Source of the DNA: an uncultured Hyphomicrobiaceae bacterium
GTDB lineage: Bacteria > Pseudomonadota > Alphaproteobacteria > Rhizobiales > CAMYJA01
NCBI GenBank assembly: GCA_947258705.1
Contig: CAMYJA010000013.1
Span: 1-51,727, forward strand
Length of the DNA: 51,727 nucleotides
Direction: 5' to 3'
The notes under the pieces are model-generated. The model saw only the letters and a program-made list of their open reading frames with translations. It made no database searches and was not told where the DNA came from. The position numbers were made by a program, and so were the translations under genes. Positions within the stretch are counted from its first letter, which is position 1, and each line of letters opens with the position of its first letter. Shown here one piece after another: positions 2,964 to 23,599 of the stretch.

Positions 2964-3434
2964 CTATCTCTGCCGGCTTTGCTCATTGATCATATCTTGC
3001 CGCCGTCTGATCTTTTCCGGCCAGGTGCTTTTGATGTAGGAAAGAACAGCAATGATTTCCTCATCGCTTAGTTCGTCCTTAAAACCGCGCATGTCTGTTT
3101 CATAGTTGCTTCCAGCCAGGGCAGCAGAACCGAGCTTGGTTATTTTGAACAAAAGCCTATCGGAGTGATGCCAGGTATGACCTGTTTCATCATGCGGTGG
3201 GGCCGGTAGGCGTCCGTTATCAAGGCGGTTACGCCAATTCGGCTGTCCCTCCAGTTTCACACCGTGGCAACTGGCGCAGCTCTTTTGATAAATTTTTTCT
3301 CCGGAGCTGACGATCGTGCGGTCGCTTGACCGCAACAACGATGCATCCACCTTATTGTTTCCGAACGGCCAATAAAAATAGGTGGCCATGACGAAGACGA
3401 ACAAGGCCAATAGGCTCCAGGACATGGGGCGCAT
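2964..3434 (-). CDS. Membrane-anchored mono-haem cytochrome c
   Basis: A 156-residue protein. One N-terminal hydrophobic segment (about residues 5-23) would anchor it or act as an uncleaved signal. It has a single haem site, CASCHG, near residue 53, with likely sixth-ligand methionines further on (TDMRGF near residue 115). The closing helix region LSDEEIIAVLSYIKSTWP is typical of class I cytochrome c domains. The domain would face the periplasm and carry single electrons. It is encoded downstream of the beta-propeller protein gene, in the same direction and separated by a hairpin. In copper clusters such cytochromes may serve as acceptors for periplasmic oxidases; that role is inference. Confidence 0.85.
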   Translation of the reverse strand: MRPMSWSLLALFVFVMATYFYWPFGNNKVDASLLRSSDRTIVSSGEKIYQKSCASCHGVKLEGQPNWRNRLDNGRLPAPPHDETGHTWHHSDRLLFKITKLGSAALAGSNYETDMRGFKDELSDEEIIAVLSYIKSTWPEKIRRRQDMINEQSRQR

Positions 3435-3578: not shown

Positions 3579-4661
3579 TCAGCTTCCTGACGATTGAACG
3601 ATCTGGTGCCCCTTGCCGCCAATATTGATCTCACCGATGGCTTTAAGGCTCTTTGCATCAATCACCCAAACCTTCGGTTTGTCAGCGCTCGACACGTAAA
3701 CCTTTCCTGCCCCTCGAATAACCTTAAGGTGATAGGGCTCGGGCTTCAGCATCACATTCCTGGACTTGCCTGACGCCAGATCAACCGCGACGAGTTTGTT
3801 GCCGCCGAGGGAAGCAACAAAGAGCGTCCCGCCATCGTCGGAGAGATCAATTCCGTGCAAGGGAGATCCGCCGATCGAGAGCGTTTTCACGACCTCTTGC
3901 TTCGTTACATCGAGAACGGATACGGTGGCATCATCTATATTATTGGTGTAGAGCGTGTTTCCGTCCTTTGACAGGACCACGTGTTCCGGGCTCTCCCCAA
4001 CTACGGCGTTCCAGCGCACGAACCATTTATTCACGTCGATGGCGGATATCGTATTGTTTCCAGCGTTGCTGACATAGACCTGGCTGCCGTCTGGACTGAA
4101 TACCGCGTAGTTCGGCAGTGAGCCCGTCGCGATGTTGGCAACAACCTTGTAGGATTTGAGTTCAACCGCGCTCACCTTATCCTCGTTTGGATGGGTGACG
4201 ATTGCAAAACGTCCATTGGGACTTACCGCCACATGGTGGACAGCGCCTGGCACATCTATCCGGCGGACAATTGATCCATCGGCAACTTTTACAACGGATA
4301 ATGTGCTGATTTCGGATCCGGGCTTGATCGCCCCCTTAGGTGGTTTTGCGTGATGAGCGGCATGCTCATCCGCAGAAACCCCGGTCGGTTTCGCGATCTT
4401 CTTGGCGCTGGGTTCACGACCTTCATAACTGCCAGCAATCAGAAATTTGCCATCGGGTGTTTTCGCCAGGCCGTGAACAGCCTGCAACCCAGAAATTGCA
4501 CCGGTCACTTTATCGCTCTTGATGTCGACAATTACCAGTTTGTTATCGCTTCCAAGAGGCACATAGGCCACCTCGCCTGCAATTGCCGTTTGCGTGGCGG
4601 CTGCGAACGAGGCTGCGACAATAGCCACGCTCATCGTGTACTGAAAATAGGATTTCATCAT
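3579..4661 (-). CDS. Secreted YVTN/YncE-type beta-propeller protein with a His-rich insertion
   Basis: A 360-residue protein with a Sec signal peptide probably cleaved after TAIA (residue 28). Repeating blade motifs follow, for example VSPNGRFAIVTHP, FSPDGSQVYVSNAGN, LSKDGNTLYTNNID and LSDDGGTLFVASLGGN, as in YVTN-family seven-bladed propellers. Between blades one and two (about residues 83-117) there is a polar insertion with ADEHAAHHAK, a possible metal-binding loop. The family is periplasmic and mostly of unknown function. AAGGAAAG lies just upstream of the double ATG at 4661. The neighbouring cytochrome c gene runs the same way, so the two products may work together in the periplasm (inference). 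Confidence 0.82.
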   Translation of the reverse strand: MMKSYFQYTMSVAIVAASFAAATQTAIAGEVAYVPLGSDNKLVIVDIKSDKVTGAISGLQAVHGLAKTPDGKFLIAGSYEGREPSAKKIAKPTGVSADEHAAHHAKPPKGAIKPGSEISTLSVVKVADGSIVRRIDVPGAVHHVAVSPNGRFAIVTHPNEDKVSAVELKSYKVVANIATGSLPNYAVFSPDGSQVYVSNAGNNTISAIDVNKWFVRWNAVVGESPEHVVLSKDGNTLYTNNIDDATVSVLDVTKQEVVKTLSIGGSPLHGIDLSDDGGTLFVASLGGNKLVAVDLASGKSRNVMLKPEPYHLKVIRGAGKVYVSSADKPKVWVIDAKSLKAIGEINIGGKGHQIVQSSGS

Positions 4662-4757: not shown

Positions 4758-5348
4758 TTACTTGACGATGGTGGCTCGGCCTGTCGTGCTGTCGACCTTC
4801 AGACGCATTACAAGCTCACCCTTGGCGGTCACCACGTCCGCGGTCACGATATTGCCCTCGCCTTTCTTTGCGTTGGCGGCTTTAAGCCGTGACAAACCGC
4901 GCATGACCAGCCTGCCATCGATAATCCGGGTGATTTCCTGCGGCGTGAAAGGGGTTTCGCGGCTGAAACCCATGCCGCCCATCATGCCCCGTCCCATGCC
5001 CATCATGCCTGGTCCCATGCCCATCATGCCTGGTCCCATGCCACCCATCATGCCTGGTCCCATGCCACCCATCATGCCGCGACCCATCATCATGCCCGGT
5101 CCCATGCCCTGGTTTCCCTGGCCCATCATCATTCCGGGGCGCATGCCCTGGTTTCCCTGGCCCATCATCATTCCGGGGCGCATGCCCTGGTTTCCCTGGC
5201 CCGGTGCCATCATCGTGCCGGGAGACTGGTTTTGTTGTCCCATGCCAGTGCCGGGTTGCATCATCTGCTGGGCGGCGGCCGGCAGTGAAAACGCGCCGAT
5301 GACAATCGCTATCGATGCGAGTTTTGTGAGGCTTTTGTTATAAGTCAT
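4758..5348 (-). CDS. Secreted Met/Gly-rich protein, long paralogue (candidate copper-binding)
   Basis: A 196-residue protein. A Sec signal peptide ends near SLPAAA, followed by QQMMQPGTGMGQQNQ. It then has 13-residue repeats of the form GNQGMRPGMMMGQ and shorter GMGPGMMG units, reaching about residue 130. The last 65 residues are non-repetitive (ETPFTPQEITRIIDG ... VDSTTGRATIVK) and look like a small folded domain. Methionine clusters of this kind bind Cu(I) in periplasmic proteins such as CopC/PcoE-type and CueO loops, so copper binding is a reasonable inference. The start at 5348 follows AAGGAAAAG. It is the second gene of the unit driven from 6019-6049 and a paralogue of the upstream gene. 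Confidence 0.75.
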   Translation of the reverse strand: MTYNKSLTKLASIAIVIGAFSLPAAAQQMMQPGTGMGQQNQSPGTMMAPGQGNQGMRPGMMMGQGNQGMRPGMMMGQGNQGMGPGMMMGRGMMGGMGPGMMGGMGPGMMGMGPGMMGMGRGMMGGMGFSRETPFTPQEITRIIDGRLVMRGLSRLKAANAKKGEGNIVTADVVTAKGELVMRLKVDSTTGRATIVK

Positions 5349-5444
5349 GGTCTTTTCCTTTTTTGCATTTGAGAAAGTGAATTGGTCTTGAGAAAATTGC
5401 GGACAGGGAGAGCACCGCCCATTAGGGCTGAACGCTCCTGTAAG

Positions 5445-5466
5445 CCCCTCGCGAACCCGCGAGGGG
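5445..5466 (-). other. Leader hairpin upstream of the long Met-rich gene (copy 1)
   Basis: A 9-bp GC-rich stem CCCCTCGCG / CGCGAGGGG with a 4-nt loop lies about 100 nt before the start at 5348. The same hairpin with nearly the same flanks is found before the paralogue (5923-5942). Its conservation in both copies follows from duplication of the whole leader-plus-gene unit. It could end readthrough from the upstream gene or stabilise the mRNA. Confidence 0.5.
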
Positions 5467-5488
5467 AAGAGATATTGAGAGATGTCGT

Positions 5489-5695
5489 TCATCTCATTCC
5501 GGGTCCCATGCCATGAGTACCCTGTTTATCCATCATCCCGGGTCCCATGCCCTGAGCACCCTGGCCATCCATCATTCCAGGTCCCATGCCTTGGGTACCC
5601 TGGCCATCCATCATCCCGGGTCCCATGCCTTGAGTGCCCTGGCCATCCATCATCCCGGGTCCCGTGCCCCGGTTTCCCTGCCCCATCATCGTATC
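5489..5695 (-). repeat. 39-bp in-gene tandem repeat
   Basis: About five imperfect copies of a 39-bp unit (13 codons) make up the 3' half of the short Met-rich gene. Copies differ at a few positions (for example GQGAQ versus GQGTQ). Units with the same 13-residue period occur in the long paralogue at about 5090-5205. Such arrays expand and contract by slippage. Confidence 0.75.
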
Positions 5696-5824
5696 AGGGT
5701 GCTGGTTTTGTTGTCCCATGCCAGTGCCGGGTTGCATCATCTGCTGGGCGGAGGCCGGCAATGAAAACGCGCAGATGACAATCGTTATCGATGCGAGTTT
5801 TGTAAAGCTTTTTTTATAAGTCAT
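5489..5824 (-). CDS. Secreted Met/Gly-rich protein, short paralogue (candidate copper-binding)
   Basis: A 111-residue protein almost identical in its first 40 residues to the downstream paralogue (signal peptide ending SLPASA, then QQMMQPGTGMGQQNQ). After that it is nothing but repeats: about five near-copies of a 13-residue unit such as DGQGTQGMGPGMM, encoded by a 39-bp tandem DNA repeat. It lacks the folded C-terminal domain of the long paralogue and ends at GMGPGMR, so it may be a shortened copy. It is nevertheless first in the unit behind the CueR-type promoter at 6019-6049. The start at 5824 follows AGGAAAAG. Cu(I) binding by the methionines is inferred. Confidence 0.7.
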   Translation of the reverse strand: MTYKKSFTKLASITIVICAFSLPASAQQMMQPGTGMGQQNQHPDTMMGQGNRGTGPGMMDGQGTQGMGPGMMDGQGTQGMGPGMMDGQGAQGMGPGMMDKQGTHGMGPGMR

Positions 5825-6018: not shown

Positions 6019-6049
6019 AGGCTAGAGGTTCTACTTACTGGAAGGTCAA
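6019..6049 (-). promoter_or_regulatory. CueR-type operator/promoter for the Met-rich protein genes
   Basis: On the minus strand: -35 TTGACC (6049-6044), a 19-bp spacer carrying the dyad CTTCCAGTAAGTAGAAC, and -10 TAGCCT (6024-6019). The overlong spacer and dyad are the hallmark of promoters activated by MerR/CueR regulators. It is about 195 bp upstream of the first Met-rich gene. Confidence 0.75.
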
Positions 6050-7191: not shown

Positions 7192-8523
7192 TTATTTTTC
7201 ATTCCCTTGAACTCTCCTCAAGAAAAACCTCTCGCCAATAAAAATAACCAGCATTCCAATCAATGCCGCATAGATAACTAATATGTCCGTCGATGCTTTC
7301 ATGGCCAGGAATGCGACAAGCACTATGAGGTCAAACATAATTGCCGTGATCAGGATAAAAGCGTTGGCATTAATCTCCTCTCGAAGGTAGCGGAAGACGC
7401 CCCAGTGGACGGCAATATCCATCGCGATATAGAAAATAGCGCCAAGCGATGCGATCCGGCTCAGATCGAAAAATATGGTCAGGAATATTGCAATCACGAC
7501 GGTATAGACCAGCGTATGCTTCTGGATATCGCCCGGCATGCCGAAATGGCTATGCGGCACCAGCTTCATATCCGTCAACATGGCCAGCATGCGCGATACC
7601 GCAAACACGCTGGCAATAACGCCGGAAACGGTAGCAATGATCGCCAATCCAACAGTGAACCATAAACCGTAATCACCGAAAGCGGGACGCGCCGCCTCAG
7701 CCAGAGCATAATCTTTTGCGGCAACGATTTCAGGTAATGTAAGATTGCTGGCGACAGCCATTGCCACTAGAAAGTAGATCACCACACAGATCACAATCGA
7801 AATAATGATGGCTCGCCCCACGTTACGGTGCGGGTCGATAATTTCAGAGCCGCTATTGGTGATGGTGGTGAAGCCCTTGTAAGCAAGAATGGCCAGCGCC
7901 ATTGCCGCGATGAAGCCCATGACGGAAGTGTCCGCGGCATGCGCGGGGGTGGATTGAAAAGAAAAACCGCCAATAAATAAACCTCCCAGGGCAAAAACAA
8001 CAATGCCGCCAATCTTGACAAAGGCCATCAAGAAAGAAAACAGGCCGATCGTGCGGTTGCCCGAAATATTCACAAGAAAAGCGAAAATCAATACGCCAAC
8101 CCCCAGGGCCGGCACGATCCAGCTACCGGGATCAACGTCGAATAATTGTACGGTGTATGTGCCGAAGGTACGCGCAACCAGGCTTTCATTTATGACCATT
8201 GAAAAATACATGAGCAGCGCACATGCTGCGGTCATCACGCTTCTGCCATAGGCTTTCTCCAAGAACATGCCGATGCCGCCGGCGGAAGGATAAGCGTTGG
8301 ACATCTTCACGTAGGAATAGGCACTGAAAGCGGTAACGACGGCGGCCGCGAGAAAAGCGAGCGGAAACAATGGGCCCGCAAGTTCGGCAATCTGACCGGT
8401 CAATGCCAGTATACCGGCACCGATCATCACGCCGGTCCCCATCGAGACGGCACCGATAAGCGTCAGAGAGTTTTCCTTATATTGAGCCGATCTATTCCCG
8501 TGATCACCGTGAGGATGCGTCAT
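7192..8523 (-). CDS. APC-superfamily amino acid permease with a His-rich N-terminus
   Basis: A 443-residue transporter with about 12 membrane segments. The APC signature GVMIGAGILALTGQ lies at about residues 31-44, with helix-breaking glycines as in the LeuT fold. A conserved E near SGSEIIDPHRN in TM6 matches the family. The family imports amino acids or amines with protons. The N-terminus is unusual: THPHGDHGN within the first ten residues is a possible metal-binding tag. The gene starts 1 bp after the upstream stop codon, so the two are likely coupled. It lies in the unit behind a CueR-type promoter. The substrate cannot be read from sequence; histidine or cysteine supply, or a metal-amino acid complex, are speculative options. 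Confidence 0.82.
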   Translation of the reverse strand: MTHPHGDHGNRSAQYKENSLTLIGAVSMGTGVMIGAGILALTGQIAELAGPLFPLAFLAAAVVTAFSAYSYVKMSNAYPSAGGIGMFLEKAYGRSVMTAACALLMYFSMVINESLVARTFGTYTVQLFDVDPGSWIVPALGVGVLIFAFLVNISGNRTIGLFSFLMAFVKIGGIVVFALGGLFIGGFSFQSTPAHAADTSVMGFIAAMALAILAYKGFTTITNSGSEIIDPHRNVGRAIIISIVICVVIYFLVAMAVASNLTLPEIVAAKDYALAEAARPAFGDYGLWFTVGLAIIATVSGVIASVFAVSRMLAMLTDMKLVPHSHFGMPGDIQKHTLVYTVVIAIFLTIFFDLSRIASLGAIFYIAMDIAVHWGVFRYLREEINANAFILITAIMFDLIVLVAFLAMKASTDILVIYAALIGMLVIFIGERFFLRRVQGNEK

Positions 8524-8524
8524 A

Positions 8525-8965
8525 TTACAGCCCTATCTCTTCGAGTACATCCTGACCTTTTGTCGTGAAGACGAGCCAGGAAATTAGGGTGCTCCCAATG
8601 GCCGCCATAATGATGCCGTTCCAGAAAAACAGTTCTGGCTGTTCGCGGCCGCCGAAAAAATTGTAATGCTGATCAATGGTAAGGCAGAGCCAGTTACAGG
8701 CTGCCAGCACAGAAAAAGCGGTGGCAGCGCCGACAATAAAAGCGCTTCTTCCTGCAAATCGCTCTACCACAATAAGAGTGACCAATGCGCCGGTCGCGGC
8801 GCCCATGCCGATGCCGCAATAAAATCCGGCCCAGATAAACTTGTAAAGCAAACTGCCATCGGGAAACGCAAACATTCCAAAGATTACAAATAGCCCGATC
8901 TCTCCGATCGAAGAGAGAAGGATCGAAACGACAATCGGTCTCTTATATTGTTTGCTTAAATCCAT
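8525..8965 (-). CDS. Four-TM membrane protein of unknown function
   Basis: A 146-residue protein with four predicted membrane segments (about residues 12-32, 39-63, 73-95 and 112-135). A polar loop with DQHYNFFGGREQPE lies before the last segment. I do not recognise the family. The start at 8965 follows AGGAG with normal spacing; an in-frame start 57 nt further out lacks such a site. The stop is 1 bp from the permease start, so they form one unit with it. The upstream TVP38-like gene is 130 bp away in the same direction. Confidence 0.65.
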   Translation of the reverse strand: MDLSKQYKRPIVVSILLSSIGEIGLFVIFGMFAFPDGSLLYKFIWAGFYCGIGMGAATGALVTLIVVERFAGRSAFIVGAATAFSVLAACNWLCLTIDQHYNFFGGREQPELFFWNGIIMAAIGSTLISWLVFTTKGQDVLEEIGL

Positions 8966-9094
8966 GGGTGATCTCTCCTGTGAGGTTACGCCTGCTGCAA
9001 ATCCCTGCTGTTCGACCCGCACCTGTTGGCGGGATCAGTGTCTATTTTTGTTTTTCAACTGCTATTCTTTTTCTTTTGTTCCTTTTTCCAGGCG

Positions 9095-9778
9095 TTATTT
9101 CTGACGTGACATTGTTATCAGCTTAATGATGAGGGGAATTGCGAAAAGGATACCGAGGAGAATAACGGAAAATAATATGCGGCCCTTTTCATCGGCGATG
9201 AGTTCACTGCCCAGATGGCCCAACAAAAAGCTGGCCGGGATGATGCCTGCCAGTGTCGCAAGGGCAAAACGCCAGTATGATAAGGCCGTCAATCCAGCCG
9301 CATAGCTTATAATATCAAATGAGACAAAGGGCAGGAGTCGACTAGCAAATACAGCGCCCATCAGAAAGCCTTGCGAGCCAACGAGTCCCTCACTTATCTG
9401 CTTTCCAAACCAGCTGTGCAGAGCGTCACGCCCCAGGACTCGGGCAACGGCGAAGGCTCCTAAGGCACCAATTACAGATCCGACAAGAATATAAAGAGAT
9501 CCCCAAAAATGCCCGTAAATCGCGCCAGCGGATAAGGCAATGGGCGCACTGGGAATAGGGCTGACCATAATTGCCACAGTCATCGACCCTATAACCGCTA
9601 GCGGACCCCAAACACCCATTGCTTCAAAATATTGACGAAGCAAGGCGCTGTCTGGCAGCTCGGAAGGCAATCCAATCTTGGAGCTCCACCAGCCAAAAGA
9701 TATGATGCCAATCGCAATGGTGATGCCCAAAAAAACTTTCAGGGAAGTCACTACATTCATGGCCTGTTTATTCTCCAT
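9095..9778 (-). CDS. TVP38/TMEM64 (DedA-superfamily) membrane protein
   Basis: A 227-residue protein with about six membrane segments. The VTT-domain core is visible: SPIPSAPIALSAGAIYG, then GALGAFAVARVLGRDAL, then FASRLLPFVSFDIISYAAGLT. These proteins are related to DedA and to eukaryotic TMEM41/VMP1 lipid scramblases and are linked to membrane homeostasis. In some bacteria they are annotated next to mercury/metal genes. The start is ambiguous: ATG 9778 has only a distant GGGGA, while ATG 9760 has GGAGA about 11 nt upstream. It is the first gene behind the leftward CueR-type promoter at 9814-9844. Confidence 0.82.
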   Translation of the reverse strand: MENKQAMNVVTSLKVFLGITIAIGIISFGWWSSKIGLPSELPDSALLRQYFEAMGVWGPLAVIGSMTVAIMVSPIPSAPIALSAGAIYGHFWGSLYILVGSVIGALGAFAVARVLGRDALHSWFGKQISEGLVGSQGFLMGAVFASRLLPFVSFDIISYAAGLTALSYWRFALATLAGIIPASFLLGHLGSELIADEKGRILFSVILLGILFAIPLIIKLITMSRQK

Positions 9779-9813: not shown

Positions 9814-9844
9814 AGCATAGAGCTTCCACTTAATGGAAGGTCAA
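9814..9844 (-). promoter_or_regulatory. CueR-type promoter, leftward, for the TVP38-permease unit
   Basis: Minus strand: -35 TTGACC (9844-9839), 19-bp spacer with the dyad CTTCCATTAAGTGGAAG, -10 TATGCT (9819-9814). The transcript would start about 30 nt before the first ATG of the TVP38-like gene. Confidence 0.85.
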
Positions 9845-9897
9845 GAAAGCTGATTTTTTCAACATGGCCTTGACCTTCCATTAAGTGGAAGCTCTAT
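9817..9897. repeat. Perfect 29-bp inverted repeat carrying two divergent CueR-type promoters
   Basis: Arms 9817-9845 and 9869-9897 are exact reverse complements, separated by 23 bp. Each arm holds a full -35, dyad and the start of the -10. The -35 elements lie at the inside, so the two promoters fire outward. Confidence 0.95.
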
Positions 9898-9900
9898 CAT
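9870..9900 (+). promoter_or_regulatory. CueR-type promoter, rightward, for the Rieske-copA-cueR unit
   Basis: Plus strand: -35 TTGACC (9870-9875), exactly 19 bp including the dyad CTTCCATTAAGTGGAAG, then -10 TATCAT (9895-9900). This matches the architecture of the E. coli copA and cueO promoters that CueR remodels when it binds Cu(I), Ag(I) or Au(I). Confidence 0.88.
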
Positions 9901-9979
9901 AATAACCAACAGCGGTTATAGAGTGAATTCATGCTGCCAGGAGTGATCAATTCTGAATTGATAACAGAGGAGCGCCGGC

Positions 9980-10528
9980 ATGGCGGATTTATCAAATAAC
10001 TTAGTTCAATCTCACACTCCGACACGGCGGGATTTTATTTTCATCGCGGCTGGAAGCTTTGCGGGCCTCGGCGGCGCGATCAGCCTGTGGCCCATTTTGG
10101 ATAGTTTTAATCCATCCGCAGATGTACGGGCGGTCGCGAGTATCGAGATTAATCTCGAGCCGATTTCACCTGGGCAGAGACTTACCGTTCTTTGGCGGGG
10201 TAAACCGGTTTTTATCGATCACCGGACCCCGCAACAGATCAGGAGCGCGCGCGCGGATGACAAGGCCGAACTCATCGAACCGGAAACCGACGCTGAAAGA
10301 GTGCAAAATCCGGATTGGCTGATTGTTATCGGCATCTGCACACATCTGGGATGCATACCCCAGGGCCAGAGACCCAATAGCCGGACGGGCAAATGGGGCG
10401 GCTGGTTCTGCTCCTGCCACGGCTCCCAATATGACACATCGGGGCGTGTCCGCGTCGGCCCGGCACCGCGCAATCTCGCCGTGCCGCCATATAAATTCAT
10501 CTCAGAAACGCTTGTTAAAATCGGATGA
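9980..10528 (+). CDS. petA: Orphan Rieske iron-sulfur protein (cytochrome bc1 type)
   Basis: A 182-residue Rieske subunit. It has a Tat-type N-terminus (TRRDFIFIAAGS) that forms the single membrane anchor, then a hydrophilic domain. Cluster ligands are all present: C120 and H122 (CTHLGC), C144 and H147 (CSCHGS), with C125 and C146 for the disulfide. Family role: transfer of an electron from ubiquinol to cytochrome c1 in the bc1 complex. No cytochrome b or c1 gene is nearby. Instead it is the first gene behind a CueR-type promoter and is followed after 51 bp by the copper ATPase gene. GAGGAG precedes the ATG. It is most simply a spare, copper-induced Rieske subunit; a dedicated partner elsewhere is possible. 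Confidence 0.9.
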   Translation: MADLSNNLVQSHTPTRRDFIFIAAGSFAGLGGAISLWPILDSFNPSADVRAVASIEINLEPISPGQRLTVLWRGKPVFIDHRTPQQIRSARADDKAELIEPETDAERVQNPDWLIVIGICTHLGCIPQGQRPNSRTGKWGGWFCSCHGSQYDTSGRVRVGPAPRNLAVPPYKFISETLVKIG

Positions 10529-10579: not shown

Positions 10580-13147
10580 ATGACTTCTTCAACAGCTAAG
10601 GGAAGCGGGCAGGCTCTCAAGCACAGCCCGCATGGTCACGAAGGAGATGTGCATGAAGGATGTGGGTGCGGGCATGACGGGCATGATGACGCAGATCACG
10701 CCGCCGCCGATACCGTCAAGGACCCGATTTGTGGAATGAACGTCGACCCGGCGACCAATGAACACAGGTTCAGCCATGAGGGACATGACTATTATTTCTG
10801 CTCCGCGGGTTGTCAGAAAAAATTCGCTGCTCACCCCGAGGATTATGTCGAGGCAATCGACCCGGTCTGCGGCATGAAGGTAGACCGGGCGCGCGCAAAA
10901 TACATGGTCCGGCACGCGGGTAAAAATTTCTATTTCTGCTCTTCGGGCTGTCAGAACAAATTTGAGTCCGAGCCAGAGAAATACCTCGATGGCAGACCTG
11001 CTCCCGAGCCGATGCCGGAAGGCACAATCTACACCTGTCCGATGCACCCCGAAATCGAGCAGGAAGGGCCGGGCGATTGCCCCATATGCGGCATGGCGCT
11101 TGAGCCAAAAGGCATCCCCGTCGGCGAAGAGGGACCAAATCCGGAACTGATTGATTTCAAGCGGCGCTTCTTGCTCGGCGCCGTTCTCACGATTCCGCTT
11201 CTCGCCCTGAGCATGGGCCCCTTCGTCGGTTTCACCTGGCTGCGCGACCTTCTCGGCGAGCATGCGTCGCAATGGGCCGAATTGCTTCTTGGAACGCCGG
11301 TCATCCTGTGGGCTGGTTGGCCGTTCCTCGTGCGTGGCGTGAAATCAGTGCAGACCATGAATCTCAACATGTTCACCCTGATCGGGATGGGCGTCAGTGC
11401 GGCATGGTTGTTCAGCGTTGTGGCTGTAATAGTCCCGCAGGCCTTCCCCGACGGATTCCGTCAGGCAGATGGCAGCGTCGGCATATATTTCGAGGCTGGC
11501 GCCGTTATTGTCGTGCTCGTGCTTTTGGGCCAGATCCTGGAACTCAACGCTCGCGAGCGCACCGGCTCTGCGATACGCGCTCTCCTCGACCTCGCTGCCA
11601 AGACGGCTCGGGTGATCCGGCCAGACGGTTCGGAAGAGGAAATTCCGCTGGAGGAGGTGGTTGTCGGCGACCGGCTGCGGGTTCGCCCTGGCGACAAGGT
11701 GCCGGTCGACGGCAAGGTCATCGAAGGTCGCTCATCCGTGGACGAGTCGATGATCTCCGGCGAAGCTATTCCTGTTGAGAAAGTCGATGGAGATCCCGTT
11801 ACCGGCGCAACCATCAACGGTACCGGCTCCCTCGTGATCGAAGCAATGCGCGTCGGTGCCGACACTATGCTTTCCCAGATTGTCGAAATGGTCGCCAACG
11901 CGCAGCGCAGCCGCGCGCCCATACAGAAACTGGCTGATTCCGTGGCCGGAAAATTCGTTCCTGCCGTGATTGCTGTCGCGATTTTGTCGTTCATCTCATG
12001 GTCTATATGGGGCCCGGCTCCCGCTTATGCCTATGCTCTCGTCTCGGCCGTTGCCGTACTTATCATCGCTTGCCCCTGCGCGCTTGGCCTCGCCACACCG
12101 ATGTCGATCATGACGGCGACAGGACGCGGTGCGCAGGCGGGCGTACTTATCAAGAACGCCGAAGCACTGGAGCGCTTCGCCAAGGTTGATACGCTGATGG
12201 TCGATAAGACCGGCACCCTGACCGAGGGCAGGCCGAAACTGGTCGCAGTGTTGCCGCAAGAGAAGCACGACGAGGCCGAGGTCTTGCTCCTCGCCGCCTC
12301 CCTGGAGCGCGGTTCGGAACATCCTCTCGCGGAGGCCATTGTTGCCGGTGCAGAGGAACGCGGCGTTTCTTTTGCCCAAACCGAGGACTTTGAAGCGATC
12401 ACGGGCAAGGGCGTCAAGGGACGCGTAAACGGCAAGGCGGTGGCCCTTGGCAATGCCAGGCTTCTTGCCGATATGGGCCTCGACGGCAGCGCATTGGTTG
12501 ATGAAGCGAATAGTCGCCGTGATGAAGGCGAAACAGTGATGTTCGTTATGCTAGAGAACGAGATCGCCGGACTGGTCGCCGTCGCGGACCCGGTAAAGGA
12601 AACGACCCCGCGCGCATTGAAAGCCCTGCACGCTGAGGGTTTGCGCATCATCATGGCCACCGGCGATAATGTGCGCACCGCCAGGGCAGTCGCCGGAAGG
12701 TTGGGAATCGACGAAATCCGCGCCGATGTTCTGCCTGAGGACAAGGCCCGGATTATTCAGGAGTTACAGGCGCAGGGAAGCAAAGTCGCTATGGCCGGTG
12801 ACGGGGTCAATGACGCGCCGGCATTGGCTCAGGCCGATGTCGGTATCGCCATGGGCACTGGCGCGGATGTTGCTATAGAGAGCGCCGGGTTTACCCTGGT
12901 CAAGGGCGACCTCAATGGTATAGTCCGGGCTCGGAGGCTTGCCCATGCGACCATGCGGAACATCAAACAAAATCTGTTTTTTGCAATGATCTATAACGCA
13001 CTTGGCGTACCAGTGGCTGCCGGTGTTCTCTACCCGGTGTTCGGTGTGTTGATCTCGCCGATTTTCGCTGCCGCCGCCATGAGTTTTTCGTCAGTGTCCG
13101 TGATAACCAATGCGCTCAGATTGCGGACCGTCAAATTGGGAGAATAG
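10580..13147 (+). CDS. copA: Cu(I)-exporting P1B-type ATPase with two YHS domains
   Basis: An 855-residue copper efflux ATPase of the inner membrane. In order: a His-rich leader (about 15-42, HSPHGHEGD and [10 protein letters not shown]), YHS/TRASH domain 1 (48-86, CGMN...FCSAGC), YHS domain 2 (94-136, CGMK...FCSSGC), a heavy-metal-binding domain (150-176, CPMHPE...CPICGM), then the ATPase core. Core motifs are the CPC of TM6 (ACPCALG, about 497-501), phosphorylation loop DKTGTLTEG (near 542), [18 protein letters not shown], and late TM motifs YNALG and MSFSS, which point to Cu(I). No classical GMTCxxC HMA domain is present. GGGGGG precedes the ATG. It lies between the Rieske and cueR genes; CueR starts 2 bp after its stop. 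Confidence 0.96.
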
Positions 13148-13149
13148 AA

Positions 13150-13560
13150 ATGAATATCAGTGCTGCCAGCCGGATCTCTCAACTGCCGGCGAAAACAATT
13201 CGGTATTACGAGGATATCGATCTCATACATCCATCGCGCCGGGACAATGGTTACCGCGACTATTCCGAAGACGATATATGCAAGCTGCGTTTTCTGCAGC
13301 ACGCACGGAGTCTCGGGTTTACGATTGAGGATTGCCGAATATTGCTCTCACTTTATGAAGACAACAGCCGAGCGAGCAAGGACGTGAAGGCAATCGCCGC
13401 GACACATCTGCAAAAAATTGAACAGAAAATTACCGAGCTGAAATCCATGCATGCCACATTGCGGCATCTGATCAATAACTGTCACGGCGATCATCGTCCC
13501 GACTGCCCGATCATTGAGGGGCTGGCTCAAACAGGAGAACCAAGGAGCCGCAAACGCTGA
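13150..13560 (+). CDS. cueR: CueR-type MerR-family copper-responsive regulator
   Basis: A 136-residue MerR-family activator. An N-terminal winged helix (TIRYYEDIDLI, YRDYSEDD) is followed by a dimerisation helix and a C-terminal metal loop CHGDHRPDCPII with C111 and C119. This matches the CueR loop, which has the same spacing. A serine (S76, in SRASKDVK) stands where divalent-metal MerR proteins carry a cysteine, which is the known mark of selectivity for Cu(I)/Ag(I)/Au(I). GGGAGAA is just upstream. It sits in the operon that it probably activates (promoter at 9870-9900), so it should be autoregulated, and it likely acts on the other four operators here. Confidence 0.94.
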   Translation: MNISAASRISQLPAKTIRYYEDIDLIHPSRRDNGYRDYSEDDICKLRFLQHARSLGFTIEDCRILLSLYEDNSRASKDVKAIAATHLQKIEQKITELKSMHATLRHLINNCHGDHRPDCPIIEGLAQTGEPRSRKR

Positions 13561-13619: not shown

Positions 13620-13650
13620 TTGAGCTTCCATCAGATGGAAGGTCTAGGAT
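13620..13650 (+). promoter_or_regulatory. CueR-type promoter for the SHOCT-multicopper oxidase unit
   Basis: -35 TTGAGC (13620-13625), 19-bp spacer holding the dyad CTTCCATCAGATGGAAG, -10 TAGGAT (13645-13650). The site is 68 bp upstream of the SHOCT gene. Confidence 0.82.
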
Positions 13651-13717: not shown

Positions 13718-14026
13718 ATGTTGAATTATCCGATCATTGAGAAGACCGCGGTAATGGTCTCTCAATGGGGTTCCGGACAGTGGGGTCCCGGAGGAATGGG
13801 AATGGGGACATGGGGCGGAGGTGGTTTTATGTGGATTATGCCCATATTCTGGCTGGTCATATTGGGCCTGTTGATCTGGTTCGTGGTCGCTCTCGTAAGA
13901 GGCGATATGGGCAGCGGCCCCCGAAATACGACGAATAAAACACCGCTTGATATCCTCAATGAGCGTTATGCCCGTGGGGAAATAGATACTGAAGAATTTG
14001 TTGAACGCCGCAACAGACTCGAATGA
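13718..14026 (+). CDS. SHOCT-domain small membrane protein
   Basis: A 102-residue protein. A Gly/Met/Trp-rich N-terminal stretch (WGSGQWGPGGMGMGTWGGGG, about 17-36) precedes one membrane segment (about 38-61). The C-terminal SHOCT motif follows, with LDILNERYARGEIDTEEF near residues 78-95. SHOCT domains are short helical modules, thought to mediate oligomerisation. GGAGG precedes the ATG with correct spacing. It is first in the unit with the multicopper oxidase. The Met/Gly stretch resembles that of the other copper-cluster proteins here, so it may bind Cu(I) (inference). Confidence 0.8.
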   Translation: MLNYPIIEKTAVMVSQWGSGQWGPGGMGMGTWGGGGFMWIMPIFWLVILGLLIWFVVALVRGDMGSGPRNTTNKTPLDILNERYARGEIDTEEFVERRNRLE

Positions 14027-14068: not shown

Positions 14069-15607
14069 ATGATTACAAGGCGTAGGCTCCTCATGGGGGG
14101 TGCGGCAACCGCAGCCGTTTCTGCGGCAGGAGTTGCGATGCCCTGGGGATTTGGTTCCATCTCTTCCCACGCCCGGATTATCGGAGCGGCCCCTCTTGCG
14201 ATCCCTCCTCTTCTCAAGGGGAATCTGAAAAATGGCGTACGGACATTTGATCTGACTCTGAAGCAAGGGCAGTCCACATTCCTGCCGGGATACACAACCA
14301 GTACACTCGGAATCAATGGCCCTTATCTTGGCCCCACGCTTCATTTCACCAATGGCGAGAAGGTCCGCCTCAATGTCAAAAACACGATTGGTGAGACGAC
14401 AACTATCCATTGGCACGGGCTGCATGTCCCAGCCATTGCCGACGGCGGACCGCATCAGGTAATCGGGCACGGCGAAACATGGTCACCTTCGTTCACGGTC
14501 AAGCAGCAAGCAGGGCTGTTCTGGTATCATCCGCATCTGCTTCACAAAACAGGTCTCCATGCCTATCTCGGCATGGCCGGCGGCATTCGCGTCGAGAATG
14601 CCGAAACTGATGCACTGCCCTTACCCAAAACCTATGGCGTCGACGACCTGCCCGTTGTTCTTCAGGACAAGCGCTTCAATAGCGATGGCTCGCTGCAATA
14701 CGGAAATTCAATGCATGACCTGATGATGGGCATGAAGGGGGACGTTTTACTGGTCAATGGCGGTGTGGCCCCGATATTCAAGGCGACCACAGCCAAGTTG
14801 CGGCTGCGCCTGCTGAACGGCTCGAATGCGCGCACATACAACCTTGGATTTAAGGACAATCGTTCATTCGACATCATTGCCGGTGACGGCTCATTGCTGC
14901 CGGCACCCGTGAAAGCCGGTCGCGCGGTCATCGCGCCCGGCGAACGCGTTGAAATTGTCGTGGACGTTAAAAGTGCGGAGCCCGCCGAGCTTGTGACCTA
15001 TCCCTATGAGAGCGTGGGTGCGATGGGTCGTGGAATGGGTCGCGGCATGATGGGTCGCGGCATGATGGGGCGCATGATGGGCATGATGGGCGACGACGGC
15101 CGGCGATTCGAAGTTCTCCGCATTGAACCCGGCGAAAAGCTTGCTCCATCACCCAGAGTTCCCGACGAACTCCTGACACTGCCGGCACTCAATGCCCGGG
15201 ATGCCGTGCGGACGCGCCGCTTTGAGCTTGATATGGGCATGGGTCCCATGATGATGATGGGGAGATCGGGATTCACGATCAACGGAAAAACGATGGACAT
15301 GAGCCGCATCGATGCCCGGGTCAAATTGGGTACGACCGAGATATGGGAAATAGCAAACCTGTCACCCATGATGCACCCTTTCCATATTCACGATATCCAG
15401 TTTCGGATTCTCGATCGGAACGGCAGGCCTCCGGCGCCATATGAAAGCGGCCTCAAGGACACGGTCCAGGTCAATTCGGGAGAGGTCGTGCGCGTTATTG
15501 CCAAATTCGAAGATTACGCCGATCCCAAATGGCCCTACATGTTCCACTGCCATATCCTCGAACATGAGGATGCGGGGATGATGGGTCAATTCACGGTTGA
15601 GGCTTGA
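14069..15607 (+). CDS. cueO: Tat-exported multicopper oxidase (CueO/CopA-type) with a Met-rich loop
   Basis: A 512-residue periplasmic oxidase that probably oxidises Cu(I) to the less toxic Cu(II). It has a Tat signal (TRRRLLMGGAATAA) and three cupredoxin domains. Copper ligands: HWHGLH (about 114-119), WYHPH (152-156) and HAYLG in domain 1; HPFHIHD (about 435) and HCHILEHEDAGMM (about 493) in domain 3. These build the type 1 site and the trinuclear T2/T3 site. Between them is a Met/Gly/Arg loop (about 317-342, units of GRGMM), the equivalent of the methionine segment that feeds Cu(I) to CueO. It follows the SHOCT gene by 42 bp and is under the CueR-type promoter at 13620. The symbol is by function; orthology to E. 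coli CueO was not tested. Confidence 0.93.
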   Translation: MITRRRLLMGGAATAAVSAAGVAMPWGFGSISSHARIIGAAPLAIPPLLKGNLKNGVRTFDLTLKQGQSTFLPGYTTSTLGINGPYLGPTLHFTNGEKVRLNVKNTIGETTTIHWHGLHVPAIADGGPHQVIGHGETWSPSFTVKQQAGLFWYHPHLLHKTGLHAYLGMAGGIRVENAETDALPLPKTYGVDDLPVVLQDKRFNSDGSLQYGNSMHDLMMGMKGDVLLVNGGVAPIFKATTAKLRLRLLNGSNARTYNLGFKDNRSFDIIAGDGSLLPAPVKAGRAVIAPGERVEIVVDVKSAEPAELVTYPYESVGAMGRGMGRGMMGRGMMGRMMGMMGDDGRRFEVLRIEPGEKLAPSPRVPDELLTLPALNARDAVRTRRFELDMGMGPMMMMGRSGFTINGKTMDMSRIDARVKLGTTEIWEIANLSPMMHPFHIHDIQFRILDRNGRPPAPYESGLKDTVQVNSGEVVRVIAKFEDYADPKWPYMFHCHILEHEDAGMMGQFTVEA

Positions 15608-19359: not shown

Positions 19360-20091
19360 ATGCCCGGCGACACTAGAACGGCTTCCATCAGCCGCAGAGA
19401 TTTTCTGAAAGCATCAGCAGCCGCCGTGCCAGTAGCCGCAACAGCTAATGCTGCCGTGGCGGATCCCAAAATACAATATGGCATGCTCATCGACATTCGA
19501 CGTTGTATCGGCTGCCATGGCTGCAGTGTGGCCTGCAAAGCCGAGTTTGAGGTTCCTCTTGGGGCCACTAGATCCTGGGTGGAATATGTTGAGCGCGGGG
19601 CTTATCCGGACGTGCGGCGCAGTTTTCTACCACGGCTTTGCAACCAGTGTTCCAATCCCTATTGCGTACCGGTGTGCCCCACAGGCGCGACCTATAAGAG
19701 GGATGAGGACGGTATCGTCATTATCGATCCGGAGATTTGCATCGGCTGCGGAAACTGCATTCTCGCCTGCCCCTATGATGTCCGCTTTCTCAATCCCGAT
19801 ACCGGGGTGGCGGAAAAATGTGACTTCTGCATACATCGGGTCTCGAAAGGCCTGGCGCCTGCCTGTGTCGAGGCTTGCATTGGCAATGCGCGGATCTTCG
19901 GTGACCTGAACGATCCGGATAGCGAAATTTCCCGCCAGATCGCAACTCATCCCGTGTCTGTTTTACGACAAGGTGTGGGGACCGAACCCAATGTTTATTA
20001 CATCGACGCCGATCATGCTGGAGAACGTGAGCGTGAGCAGGGGCAATACATACGCATCACGACCCACCGAAAGCAGCAGGAGAGGAGATAG
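19360..20091 (+). CDS. Tat-exported four-cluster ferredoxin subunit of a molybdoenzyme (DmsB/PsrB/TtrB type)
   Basis: A 243-residue protein with a Tat signal (SRRDFLKASAAAV). Sixteen cysteines are arranged for four [4Fe-4S] clusters: CIGCHGCSVAC, CNQCSNPYCVPVC, CIGCGNCILAC, and CDFC followed by CVEAC. It is the electron-transfer subunit that links the membrane quinone-reactive subunit to the catalytic subunit. It has its own Tat signal, which TtrB-type subunits carry and many DmsB-type subunits do not. GAGAGG precedes the ATG. First gene of the operon; the next starts 2 bp after its stop. Confidence 0.9.
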   Translation: MPGDTRTASISRRDFLKASAAAVPVAATANAAVADPKIQYGMLIDIRRCIGCHGCSVACKAEFEVPLGATRSWVEYVERGAYPDVRRSFLPRLCNQCSNPYCVPVCPTGATYKRDEDGIVIIDPEICIGCGNCILACPYDVRFLNPDTGVAEKCDFCIHRVSKGLAPACVEACIGNARIFGDLNDPDSEISRQIATHPVSVLRQGVGTEPNVYYIDADHAGEREREQGQYIRITTHRKQQERR

Positions 20092-20093
20092 TC

Positions 20094-21062
20094 ATGACCC
20101 ATGACCTCGTATGGGGATGGTCGATAATCATTCACCTCTTTTTGGTCTCGCTTGGCGCGGGAACGCTAATTGTGAGCGCGGTGCTGCTTTTGCGCGGCGG
20201 TGATGAGCGAGCTGACAGGTCCGATTTCAGGATCGCACGCATTGCCGCCTTTATCGCTCCCGTTCCCGTAATGATCGACGGCCTCATTCTGATTTCCGAG
20301 CTAGGATCGTTCCAGGCTGGCTATTGGTTCAAATGGTTGAATCTCTATAAGACGATCATTTTTACGGCGCCGATGTCCGTTGGTCTCTGGTTATTGACCG
20401 CATTCATATGCGTGAGCCTCCTTTATGCTGCGACATTCGTATTCGCTGATGCGACACCCGGTAACGTCTGGCATGGTCGAAGAAAAGTACTGGCATGGGT
20501 GGGAGTGCCTCTCGGCATCGCAGCCGCCCTCTATCCGGGTTTCCTGCTCGCCACCATGCAGGCTCGGCCATTGTGGAACACGCCGCTTCTGCCTCTGCTG
20601 TTTCTGTTGTCCTCGCTTTCGGTGGGGATTGCGGTGGCAACGCTTCTGCGCGCAATACTACGCACGAAGGCGCCGCCATCGGCCGGTGAGACTGTTCATC
20701 AGAGAGGTGCGTACGCGATGGCTGCCACGGACGTCATGCTTATCGGTGGGCAGCTTCTGCTTATAATCTTGTTCCTGCTGTTCGGCCATCTGTCAGTGGG
20801 CAGTGTAACGCACGCCATGCAGATCATTTTACCGGGCGGTCAAATGGGCTCACTTTTCTGGATCTGGGTTGTGCTGATAGGTCTGCTGACGCCGGGTCTT
20901 ATCGAATTGTCTTACCTGCTTCCAAAACTGCGCGAGAGGGGCGAATTCTCTTTACCAACTGCGCTCCAGCTTGCCGTACCACTCACTGTTTTCGTCGGTG
21001 CCTTCATGCTGCGCTACGTTTTGACAATTGCAGGACAAATCACAGGGGCAACCGGAATTTGA
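20094..21062 (+). CDS. NrfD/PsrC-type polytopic membrane anchor subunit
   Basis: A 322-residue hydrophobic protein with about nine membrane segments. It begins HDLVWGWSIIIHLFLVSLGAG, the characteristic first helix of the NrfD/PsrC family. These subunits exchange electrons with the quinone pool and do not need haem. GGAGA precedes the ATG. It sits between the FeS and catalytic subunit genes, the gene order of tetrathionate reductase (ttrBCA). Confidence 0.9.
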   Translation: MTHDLVWGWSIIIHLFLVSLGAGTLIVSAVLLLRGGDERADRSDFRIARIAAFIAPVPVMIDGLILISELGSFQAGYWFKWLNLYKTIIFTAPMSVGLWLLTAFICVSLLYAATFVFADATPGNVWHGRRKVLAWVGVPLGIAAALYPGFLLATMQARPLWNTPLLPLLFLLSSLSVGIAVATLLRAILRTKAPPSAGETVHQRGAYAMAATDVMLIGGQLLLIILFLLFGHLSVGSVTHAMQIILPGGQMGSLFWIWVVLIGLLTPGLIELSYLLPKLRERGEFSLPTALQLAVPLTVFVGAFMLRYVLTIAGQITGATGI

Positions 21063-21073
21063 AGGAGTGAGAT

Positions 21074-23599
21074 ATGTCGAACCGCCGCGAATTCTTGAAA
21101 TTTGGCGCCGCCTCCGCCGCTTTGGCCGTTGCAGGCACGGACGCCAAGGCCAAAAAGCCTGCACAATTCAAAAAGGGAGGCATGGATTTCTCCCCCGAAA
21201 CCCAGAAGGCTCGCCAGGCCGTGCCCACGGCGTGCTGGCAATGCGTCACGCGTTGCCCTGTGATTGGATATGTCGAGAACGGCCGGTTGGTGAAAATCGG
21301 CGGGCAACCGGAGTCGATCAGAACAGGTGGTCACCTATGTGCCAAGGGTCAGGCCGGTGTCAACCAGGTCAACGACCCGGACCGGCTTCTTCACCCCTTG
21401 CGCCGCGTCGGTAAACGCGGTGAAGGTAAATGGAAACGTATTTCCTGGGACGAGGCAATAAGCGAGATTGCAGGCCGCCTCAAGAAACTGCGCGATGAGG
21501 GGCATCCCGAGAAGTTCATGTTCCACTACGGGCGGATGAAAGGCAGCTCCAGCAAATTAATCAAGAGCGTTTTTCTTGCCAGTTACGGGACCGGCACCAT
21601 TGGCAATCATACGGCCATCTGCGAATCCTCTAAATGGACCGGGCAGGAATTGACCTGGGGCAAGCATTACGACAATTGGGATTTCGACAAGACCAAATAT
21701 GTACTGAATTTTGGCAGCAATTGTCTCGAAGCCCACACGAACCATACACCGGTCGCCTACCGCCTAACGACGGCTCTGGTGGACCGGCAGATCAAGATGG
21801 TGACATTCGATCCCCGGCTCTCCAACACGGCCGCAAAATCCTCCGAATGGGTGCCCATCAAGCCCGGCACCGACTTGGCGGTTGTGCTCGCCATGTGCAA
21901 CGTAATCATGGCGGAAGAACTCTATCGAGGAGAGGGCGAAGCGTTTCTGAAGTTCTGCAAGGTGACAGAGGGGGCCGATGCCACGACCGAGGAAAAAATT
22001 AACGCGTTGAAAAAACATCTGGCGCAATATACGCCGGAATGGGCGGCTGGAATCAGCGGCGTTCAGGCAGACAAGATCCGTGAAATCGCCCGTGAACTCG
22101 CCACCAGTAAACCAGCCTGCGTCGTCAGCTACCGCGGTGCCGTGACACATTATTATGGATCGGAAGCGGAACGCGCCATACAAATGCTGGCGGCGATCAC
22201 GGGAAATATCGACAATCCCGGCGGCCGCTGCCTGGCGGTTGGCGCCAAGTGGAAATATCCGCATGGACCGAAAAACAAACCGAAAACCAAAAAACTGAAG
22301 ATCCTCGATGGATTTAACGGGACTGTGAGCCTGCCAACACATCATGTCAGCCATCAGGTGTTGTCCATGATCAAGGACGGCAGCCATGGCCGGCCCGACG
22401 TCTATATGTGGTACTGCTATCAACCAGTTTATTCCAACGGGGATTGCAAAGAGAATATCGCCATCTTGAAGGACGAGTCGCTCTTGCCGTTCACCGTGGC
22501 CGTCAGTCCGTTCTATGACGAATCCTCGGAATTGGCGGATATCATCCTGCCCGATGCCACCTATCTCGAACGTTGGGACTGGGAGGATATGGTCTCTCCC
22601 AACCAGGTGCCGGAATATTACATCCGCCAGCCTGTGGTGAAACCTCTGGGCGAAGTCCGTGACTTTGCCGACGTTTGCTGCGAGTTGGCCGAGCGGATGG
22701 GGTTTCCCTTAGGCTTCAAATCCAAGGAAGAGTTCGTCAATCAGTCATGCGCGATGACACCTGCCGTCAAAGCAGCAGGCGGATTCGAATATATGAAGGA
22801 GCATGGCGTCTGGCATGATCCCAAGGCCAGACCGAAATATTATTCTTACAAAAAGGAAGTGTCGCCTGCTGCGCTGCAGGTGGATGGCGTGATTTTCGAT
22901 GAAGCAACGGGCGTCTACTGGAACTGGCACAAATCCAAAGCCAAAAGCGCAGGGGAAGCAGGCTCGACCGGCTACACGCGCACCAAGAAATCCTACAAGG
23001 GCTATGTGGGGCAAAAGATCGGGGACAAAGTCTATGTCGGTTTCAAGCCTGACAAGGTGAACAAGTCCGGCTATTTCGAGTTCTATTCCCACATCATGGA
23101 GGAGAAGGGGTTTGCGCCTCTTCCGAGTTACAAGCCGATCCCCGAGCACGTGGCGATGAAGCCCGGTGAACTCATTCTCACGACGTACAAGGTCAATGTG
23201 CAGACCCACTCCCGGACACAGAACAGCAAATGGCTGAGCGAGATCTATCACAACAATCCGGCGTGGATTAATCCGGAGACCGCAGCATCACTGGGCATTG
23301 GTGAGGGCGATAAAATCAAGGTCAGGTCAGAAAAGGGGACTATAGAAATCAGCGCACGCGTCACCCCCGCCGTGGCGCCGGGCGTCATCGCCATCTCGTT
23401 CCATTGCGGGCACTGGCAGTATGGACGCTATGCGTCAGGCGAGAAAACCGGTTTTGGTGATCTGCATGACCCGGATGGCGCTCGCATCTGGTGGACGGAT
23501 AAGGGCGTGCACCCCAATTGGATCATCCCGAACAAGCCCGACCCGATCAGCGGGGTGCAACGGTGGATGGATACTGTGGTCACCGTGACCAAGGTGTGA
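21074..23599 (+). CDS. Tat-exported molybdopterin oxidoreductase, catalytic subunit (substrate unassigned)
   Basis: An 841-residue enzyme of the DMSO-reductase superfamily. It has a Tat signal (NRREFLKFG), then a [4Fe-4S] site C54-x2-C57-x3-C61-x27-C89, and the bis-MGD binding domains. The likely Mo/W ligand is C183 in GNHTAICESSKW. The C-terminal domain has FHCGHWQYGRY. With the FeS and NrfD-type subunits it forms a periplasmic quinone-linked complex. The length and the YGRM motif ahead of the cysteine recall the ArrA/ArxA/TtrA/PsrA group (arsenic oxyanions, tetrathionate, polysulfide, thiosulfate). TtrA is usually longer (about 1,000 residues). I cannot pick a substrate or even the direction of catalysis from sequence alone. 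AAGGAG precedes the ATG. Confidence 0.9.
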   Translation: MSNRREFLKFGAASAALAVAGTDAKAKKPAQFKKGGMDFSPETQKARQAVPTACWQCVTRCPVIGYVENGRLVKIGGQPESIRTGGHLCAKGQAGVNQVNDPDRLLHPLRRVGKRGEGKWKRISWDEAISEIAGRLKKLRDEGHPEKFMFHYGRMKGSSSKLIKSVFLASYGTGTIGNHTAICESSKWTGQELTWGKHYDNWDFDKTKYVLNFGSNCLEAHTNHTPVAYRLTTALVDRQIKMVTFDPRLSNTAAKSSEWVPIKPGTDLAVVLAMCNVIMAEELYRGEGEAFLKFCKVTEGADATTEEKINALKKHLAQYTPEWAAGISGVQADKIREIARELATSKPACVVSYRGAVTHYYGSEAERAIQMLAAITGNIDNPGGRCLAVGAKWKYPHGPKNKPKTKKLKILDGFNGTVSLPTHHVSHQVLSMIKDGSHGRPDVYMWYCYQPVYSNGDCKENIAILKDESLLPFTVAVSPFYDESSELADIILPDATYLERWDWEDMVSPNQVPEYYIRQPVVKPLGEVRDFADVCCELAERMGFPLGFKSKEEFVNQSCAMTPAVKAAGGFEYMKEHGVWHDPKARPKYYSYKKEVSPAALQVDGVIFDEATGVYWNWHKSKAKSAGEAGSTGYTRTKKSYKGYVGQKIGDKVYVGFKPDKVNKSGYFEFYSHIMEEKGFAPLPSYKPIPEHVAMKPGELILTTYKVNVQTHSRTQNSKWLSEIYHNNPAWINPETAASLGIGEGDKIKVRSEKGTIEISARVTPAVAPGVIAISFHCGHWQYGRYASGEKTGFGDLHDPDGARIWWTDKGVHPNWIIPNKPDPISGVQRWMDTVVTVTKV

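Follow-up and report, generated by a model that had tools for sequence, protein, structure and literature searches.

Second Rieske proteins, their interchange in Rubrivivax and forms encoded outside petABC are already in print (PMC4013037). In Rubrivivax gelatinosus the second Rieske protein PetA2 is reported to be interchangeable in the complex (PMC4013037, citing Ouchane et al. 2005), and the pair is described there as closely related. The same paper reports alphaproteobacterial ISP2 forms that lie outside petABC in isolated clusters, are longer and beta/gamma-like, and have no common flanking genes. In the case of Mesorhizobium loti the second Rieske protein, Mlr0970, is expressed under low oxygen and has its own cytochrome b gene next to it (PMC6256036), and the word copper occurs 0 times in the text of that paper.

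The window discussed here, by which we mean the whole stretch of DNA analysed, is 51,727 nucleotides long and makes up the whole of contig C13 (1-51727); the genome has 66 contigs totalling 2.77 Mb and a listed completeness of 100%. At 9980-10528 on the forward strand it carries a petA-type gene, starting with ATG, for a Rieske iron-sulfur subunit of 182 aa with a Tat/transmembrane helix, a hinge and a [2Fe-2S] domain, which we refer to as the orphan. The product passes the bc1-type Rieske model TIGR01416 in a profile search (205.8 bits against a cut-off of 97.4) and matches both UCR_Fe-S_N, the Tat/membrane segment, and the Rieske domain, with a helix predicted at residues 16-42. The ligands C120, H122, C144 and H147 are at the expected places, as are C125 and C146, the usual second cysteine pair, and S149 and Y151, the Ser and Tyr of the high-potential type. 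The structure matches of an AlphaFold2 model (mean pLDDT 80.5, pTM 0.65) are bc1 Rieske chains, the best at E 4.7e-18, and the model fits the soluble domain 1rie with an rmsd of 2.7 A over 131 columns; the closest solved structures include bacterial and mitochondrial bc1 Rieske chains. Judged by sequence and fold, the orphan is thus a member of the bc1 Rieske family. A b6f-type identity was rejected, the best two models of that type giving only 44.2 bits (cut-off 154) and 41.7 bits (cut-off 250).

With regard to the known systems, the orphan shares with petABC Rieske proteins the domain order, the ligands, the hinge and the high-potential Ser/Tyr, but its gene is outside petABC, in a copA-cueR operon, and it belongs to a group without petABC members. 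Like Rubrivivax PetA2 it is a second Rieske protein in one genome. However, the Rubrivivax proteins are closely related according to PMC4013037, whereas the orphan is 62% identical to the Rieske protein of the host operon, sits on a separate branch and is linked to copper genes. The ISP2 forms also lie outside petABC, but the members of the orphan group are mostly short and repeatedly have copper genes as neighbours, and the orphan itself, at 182 aa and without the insert of the host protein, goes poorly with the description of ISP2 as 'longer' (PMC4013037). Mlr0970 resembles the orphan in being a second, differently regulated Rieske protein, but only Mlr0970 is followed by a cytochrome b gene (PMC6256036).

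The petA gene is followed on the forward strand by a gene for a CopA-type copper P-type ATPase with a YHS-YHS-HMBD N-terminus (10580-13147, from profile and domain matches) and one for a CueR regulator (13150-13560; TIGR02044, 155.8 bits against a cut-off of 147.4). There are 51 bases from the end of petA to the start of copA and 2 bases from the end of copA to the start of cueR, and a simple scan gave no terminator-like site between petA and copA. Ahead of petA, at 9870-9900 on the forward strand, is an element resembling a CueR-type promoter for petA-copA-cueR, with TTGACC, a 19-base spacer and TATCAT, 0 mismatches to the CueR-box consensus used for all scans reported here, and with the dyad CTTCCATTAAGTGGAAG inside the spacer. 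The original prediction had a full Rieske subunit, with its four ligands, first in a copA operon behind a CueR promoter, and the reading frame, the residue positions, the gene spacing, cueR and the 9870-9900 element all bear this out, the promoter as a call from sequence. Between that element and the petA start codon there is also a perfect 17-base palindrome, ATCAATTCTGAATTGAT, at 9946-9962, possibly a second operator or a hairpin; the whole window has ten palindromes with 8-base arms, some of them overlapping.

A search of the whole window for the CueR pattern gave 9 matches where 0.10 were expected. These fall at 6 places (2579, 6025, 9820, 9870, 13620 and 43191), as palindromes count on both strands, and 5 of the 6 are between the start of the window and 14 kb, where the copper genes are. 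A mirror-image box (9820-9844, reverse strand, 0 mismatches) faces the gene for a TVP38/VTT-domain membrane protein that is divergent from petA (9095-9778, reverse, domain match) and has homologues near orphan petA genes in relatives. Another (13620-13644, forward, 1 mismatch) is ahead of genes for a SHOCT-domain protein (13718-14026, forward, domain match) and a CueO-like multicopper oxidase (14069-15607, forward) that is below the CueO equivalog cut-off. Boxes with 2 mismatches on the reverse strand are at 2579-2603 and, upstream of the Met-rich genes, at 6025-6049.

The Met-rich genes, both on the reverse strand, encode two Met/Gly-rich proteins, a candidate secreted copper binder (4758-5492, the start of the reading frame being uncertain) and a second candidate copper binder (5489-5824), both roles being putative; GMGPGMM-type repeats are present in the two, with the CueR-like box at 6025 upstream. 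Also on the reverse strand are genes for an APC-family permease (7192-8523) and a YncE-like beta-propeller protein (3579-4661), which both recur in the same cluster in relatives, a small c-type cytochrome adjoining the YncE-like gene (2964-3434), and a 165-aa protein (8525-9022) without a Pfam or NCBIfam match, homologues of which lie between the APC permease and an orphan petA in loci L005, L006, L015, L017, L026 and L151. Further along the window, at 19360-23599, is a three-gene molybdopterin oxidoreductase unit (4Fe-4S protein, NrfD and molybdopterin subunit), for which the best NCBIfam models are TtrB and PhsA, with scores below their cut-offs.

Efflux, oxidation and sequestration are the usual explanations of copper resistance in bacteria. 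The window shares cueR, copA, a CueO-like oxidase and CueR-type promoters with the CueR/CopA/CueO regulon, but while no respiratory subunit is known to us among the E. coli members of that regulon, the set in the window includes one.

The host has a second Rieske gene, 62% identical to the orphan, on contig C5, where petA is followed by reading frames of 431 aa and 289 aa that by sequence and position are cytochrome b and cytochrome c1. The only match to PF00033 (cytochrome b) in the genome is the one on C5 beside the host petA, and no match to cytochrome b or c1 was found in the window, in agreement with the prediction that the orphan stands without either. The proposed check, for another petA within a complete petABC operon, therefore comes out positive, and the orphan is not the only petA of the genome. 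As there is a single PF00033 match, we rejected both a further bc1 complex and a cytochrome b of the orphan's own. Beyond the two petA genes there are two more PF00355 matches, on C37 and C2, and these proteins are absent from the matches when the genome is searched with the orphan protein.

The host Rieske protein on C5 carries a 14-residue insert that the orphan is without (55 against 41 residues). In the orphan group 27 of the 28 members that could be measured are short and one is long. According to PMC4013037 a prominent Rieske insert is matched by inserts in cytochrome b, and we assume that the insert of the host is the same one.

A tree built from 147 Rieske rows places the orphan in a group of 33 rows that has no petABC member (support 92/96), and in a pruned tree the 30 remaining rows of that group are one side of a branch (97/85), the bootstrap being not fully settled in either tree. 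The pruned tree left out 33 rows, long branches among them, of which three are group members (L157, L158 and L162); repeats of the window or of longer loci, and identical rows, had been dropped. The named members belong to Rhodobacterales and Hyphomicrobiales, that is to at least two alphaproteobacterial orders, and three (L138, L140 and L143) are from genomes of the window's own order. Plasmid records, which were sought on purpose, account for 11 of the 33 rows. The host Rieske protein (L003) is in a supported 11-row set from the window's own order, comprising 10 petABC rows and 1 orphan, and as the two proteins of the host are in separate groups a recent local duplication of the host petA is ruled out. 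On the trees, the orphan thus belongs to a larger group of orphans, some of them on plasmids, and is neither private to this genome nor a local duplicate. There are also orphans near metal genes but outside the group (L011/L104/L150, L106, L010, L163 and L165), which suggests that Rieske genes entered such islands more than once.

To our knowledge the mobile hinge of Rieske proteins is used only inside bc/bf complexes. The hinge of the orphan group (44-54) has a mean entropy of 0.97 over 33 rows against 0.98 over 90 petABC rows, a count that left out 7 divergent petABC rows, and since related rows lower the entropy this is to be read as similar, not greater, constraint. The loops CTHLGC, CxCHGSxYD and GPAPxNL are invariant in all 33 rows. 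In one position the orphan is unusual, having CSCH where CPCH is usual, and Ser is found there in 2 of the 33 rows. The linker between helix and head of the R. capsulatus protein, residues 40-50 in PMC7876108, maps onto the same hinge stretch by way of the offset of the 1zrt_E match. The 14 Rhodobacterales orphans compared gave dN/dS values of 0.05-0.20 in the 47 of 91 pairs for which an estimate was possible, as expected for purifying selection. Hinge, anchor and docking loops are thus kept without an adjacent cytochrome b gene, which points to a function within a bc1 complex that other genes encode.

The neighbourhoods of other Rieske genes were compared in a sample of 65 loci from named records, taken on sequence alone by scanning with peptide patterns of the query, of which 62 with a match of at least 140 residues were kept (L049, L058 and L068 being left out). 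A cytochrome b gene is beside petA in 44 of these and absent in 15, and in 3 the contig ends too soon. A CopA gene is within 10 kb in 10 of the 15 orphans and in 0 of the 44 petABC loci, and at least one gene of the window cluster is nearby in 15 of 15 and 0 of 44 respectively, though many of the petABC contigs are short (3.4 kb upwards). The cluster genes counted were those for CueR, multicopper oxidase, YncE-like protein, APC permease, cytochrome c, the 165-aa protein and VTT, which are not all copper-specific. In the orphan group as a whole, 21 of the 33 rows have a CopA-type ATPase at no more than 10 kb, whereas none of the 22 petABC loci of at least 18 kb does. In a further 39 genomes, mostly picked for more than one Rieske match, 60 Rieske places were read by eye from tables; 9 of the 21 without a cytochrome b match alongside have a CopA-type match within 15 kb, as against none of the other 39, which have cytochrome b alongside. 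All 39 of these genomes have a cytochrome b match.

A Rieske match was present in 128 plasmid records, not all of them orphans, and of the 18 whose surroundings were inspected, L164 turned out to hold an ordinary petABC operon. Ruegeria sp. B32 (L151) has a tight run of copA, APC permease, a DUF2933 gene, a hypothetical gene, cytochrome c and petA, and L005, L006, L015, L017 and L026 have the order CopA, APC permease, 165-aa-type protein, (cytochrome c), petA on a single strand. The Nitratireductor locus L154 has cytochrome c, petA, cytochrome c and a copper ATPase, and on pSinB, a conjugative plasmid from a gold mine, petA is between an SCO/DsbA/CcdA block and a CusA-type efflux system. L135 has a cueR gene after petA (165.8 bits, above the CueR cut-off of 147.4), and L027 a CueR-like gene before it (124.5 bits, below that cut-off).

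No CopA gene was found in the stretch scanned, within 10 kb, for 12 of the 33 group rows. Of these, L009, L027, L032 and L152 have other copper signs, L153 has an annotated P-type ATPase 9.2 kb away, just beyond the stretch scanned, and L004 and L019 end at contig ends. In the case of L161, a copper-free setting was ruled out by a wider view, which gave a copper ATPase 14 kb away and, with it, multicopper oxidase, SCO and CcdA genes, all about 10-30 kb from petA. No annotated copper gene was seen on the sides viewed in L140, L157 (a Sulfitobacter plasmid) and L162 (a Bosea plasmid), nor on the single visible side of L143. L140 is the closest relative found, 67-68% identical to the orphan, and has its petA between a Crp/Fnr-type regulator and RquA (L140 10135-12564); RquA is an enzyme of rhodoquinone biosynthesis. 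L162 likewise has a Crp/Fnr regulator, 3.4 kb from petA.

The relatives were also scanned for CueR-like boxes, 38 loci in all, with that single consensus, at most 4 mismatches and both strands, palindromes being counted twice. There were 66 matches, compared with 12 when the letters of each locus were put through a single plain shuffle. A box within 300 bases ahead of petA, or of a copA heading the run, is found only in the window, L005, L006, L032 and L151, with a weak one in L155, and the four relatives are all Rhodobacterales. In L005, L006 and L151 it is 58-287 bases ahead of the copA match heading a copA-APC-...-petA run, starting in L151 65 bases upstream of the annotated copA start, and in L032 it is 78 bases ahead of the petA match. 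In the Hyphomicrobiales loci L152, L153 and L161 the box is downstream of petA, not upstream, and at up to 4 mismatches there is none anywhere in L007, L017, L160, L167, L134 and L139. CueR control of petA in every relative is thus unsupported, an upstream box being found in the window and four relatives of 38 loci.

We suggest that the orphan is an alternative Rieske subunit for the only bc1 complex of the host, made on demand in copper excess, and put the probability of this at roughly 0.58. Given the invariant loops and a hinge under the same degree of constraint as that of petABC proteins, exchange into the host bc1 under copper stress would be the likeliest role, and CueR-type control in the window makes a copper-induced alternative subunit the simplest account. 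We infer both copper induction and incorporation into bc1. Cu(I) would activate CueR at the dyad between the -35 and -10 sequences before petA, which the box and the presence of cueR make likely, and the spacing of the genes makes it likely that petA, copA and cueR are transcribed as one unit. The product has the signal and the helix, and would be exported by the Tat route, as follows from its family, and held by the N-terminal helix. It is then a reasoned guess that the orphan would replace damaged or missing housekeeping Rieske protein in bc1, and equally so that quinol oxidation would be restored while CopA and the oxidase lower copper. Target replacement would in this way be carried along with efflux.

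In favour of that role are the host petABC operon with its single cytochrome b, a group without petABC rows, the constraint on the proteins, the proximity of CopA, the CueR-like boxes of L005, L006, L151 and L032, the cueR of L135 and CueR-like gene of L027, the cytochrome b match in each of the 39 further genomes, and the fold shared with bc1 Rieske proteins. Copper is also said to perturb Fe-S clusters in a rhomboid-protease study, in which FdnH and FdoH were processed further under copper stress (PMC7232013). Against it are the 12 of 33 rows without CopA within 10 kb, the absence of copper genes from view in L140, L157 and L162, the small number of upstream boxes, the lack of the insert in the orphan, the cytochrome c gene directly ahead of petA in several relatives and the replacement of CPCH by CSCH. 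The idea of a copper-induced replacement for the bc1 Rieske subunit, as first put forward, therefore keeps its second petA, its bc1 Rieske features, the purifying selection seen in relatives and the copper genes close by in many of them, but has to allow for a wider, partly plasmid-borne group, some members of which, including the closest, L140, have no copper gene in view. These members suggest that copper-induced replacement may be one use of a general spare Rieske protein.

Taken further, this would make the orphan a general-purpose spare on mobile stress islands that joins bc1 under low oxygen or mixed stress, with the copper control seen here just one of several promoters behind which petA was placed. 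L140, with its rquA and Crp/Fnr regulator, L162 and L157 have no copper genes in view and fit this well, as do islands in which copper genes are mixed with genes annotated for the thymidine phosphorylase family, ribose-phosphate diphosphokinase and phosphoenolpyruvate synthase, and a Methylocystis plasmid petA shortly after merA (L163, outside the group). The second Rieske protein of Mesorhizobium loti is likewise expressed under low oxygen, although it has a cytochrome b gene downstream (PMC6256036). However the sole control element recognised before the window petA is the CueR-type promoter, and CopA is within 10 kb in 21 of 33 members, with the copper ATPase of L161 found at 14 kb, so that we regard this explanation as rather unlikely.

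A cytochrome c gene is just upstream of petA in ten loci (L004, L006, L015, L019, L026, L133, L134, L138, L151 and L154), another is near YncE in the window, and multicopper oxidase matches are close to petA in several loci. From these positions the cytochrome c and Rieske proteins of several relatives could form a separate chain, and the orphan might then be a stand-alone periplasmic carrier that works with a small cytochrome c in a copper-handling chain, for example in Cu(I) oxidation, without bc1. We know of no such stand-alone Rieske chain. This is distinctly improbable, as the helix, hinge and docking loops, for which a free carrier would have no need, are kept as strictly as in petABC proteins, and that petA-adjacent cytochrome c has no match within 10 kb in the window, L005 or L017. 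That the orphan is a mere passenger, a surplus petA picked up by an island, transcribed only by chance and irrelevant to copper resistance, is very improbable in view of the purifying selection, the recurrence in similar neighbourhoods and the several separate tree placements of metal-island Rieske proteins, even though extra Rieske genes without a copper-cluster match within 10 kb do exist (L141, L142 and L144-L146).

If the copper-induced alternative subunit is correct, then replacement of a respiratory part joins the list of copper-resistance mechanisms, and the Rieske protein is indicated as a copper target in living cells; the presence of its relatives on copper-resistance plasmids and islands suggests that the replacement of a damaged respiratory part may belong to copper resistance. 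The system would be a simple one for study, since it needs a single small gene, involves one known complex and can be read out by bc1-dependent growth. What is new, as far as the open-licence literature shows, is a copper-linked, partly plasmid-borne orphan Rieske group: no Rieske gene in a copper operon was met among the titles and abstract openings listed from that literature, which says little of subscription journals. The original view that such a repair strategy is undescribed holds to this extent for the copper-linked group, but exchangeable second Rieske proteins are known from Rubrivivax (PMC4013037). More tentatively, and with some doubt, we raise the possibility that mobile alphaproteobacterial copper islands carry a 'universal' short Rieske protein, lacking the insert of the host form, that is copper-induced and swapped into the bc1 of any recipient. 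This, if true, would be target replacement as a form of metal resistance, comparable to the replacement enzymes of drug resistance and travelling with efflux genes.

Some features of the islands deserve mention in their own right. An orphan petA on a Methylocystis rosea plasmid (L163, 8977-9495) closely follows a merTPA mercury operon, which repeats the arrangement with a different metal. Genes of the PEP synthase, thymidine phosphorylase family, ribose-phosphate diphosphokinase and zwf/gnd/tal kinds occur in the islands of L150, L157, L158, L159 and L163, and such carbon and nucleotide metabolism genes beside orphan petA suggest mixed energy-stress islands. On the Ensifer/Sinorhizobium plasmids (L152, L153 and L161) there are CcdA, DsbA- and TlpA-type genes within about 30 kb of the orphan petA, and SCO genes in two of them, as if these copper islands held spares for respiratory-chain maturation.
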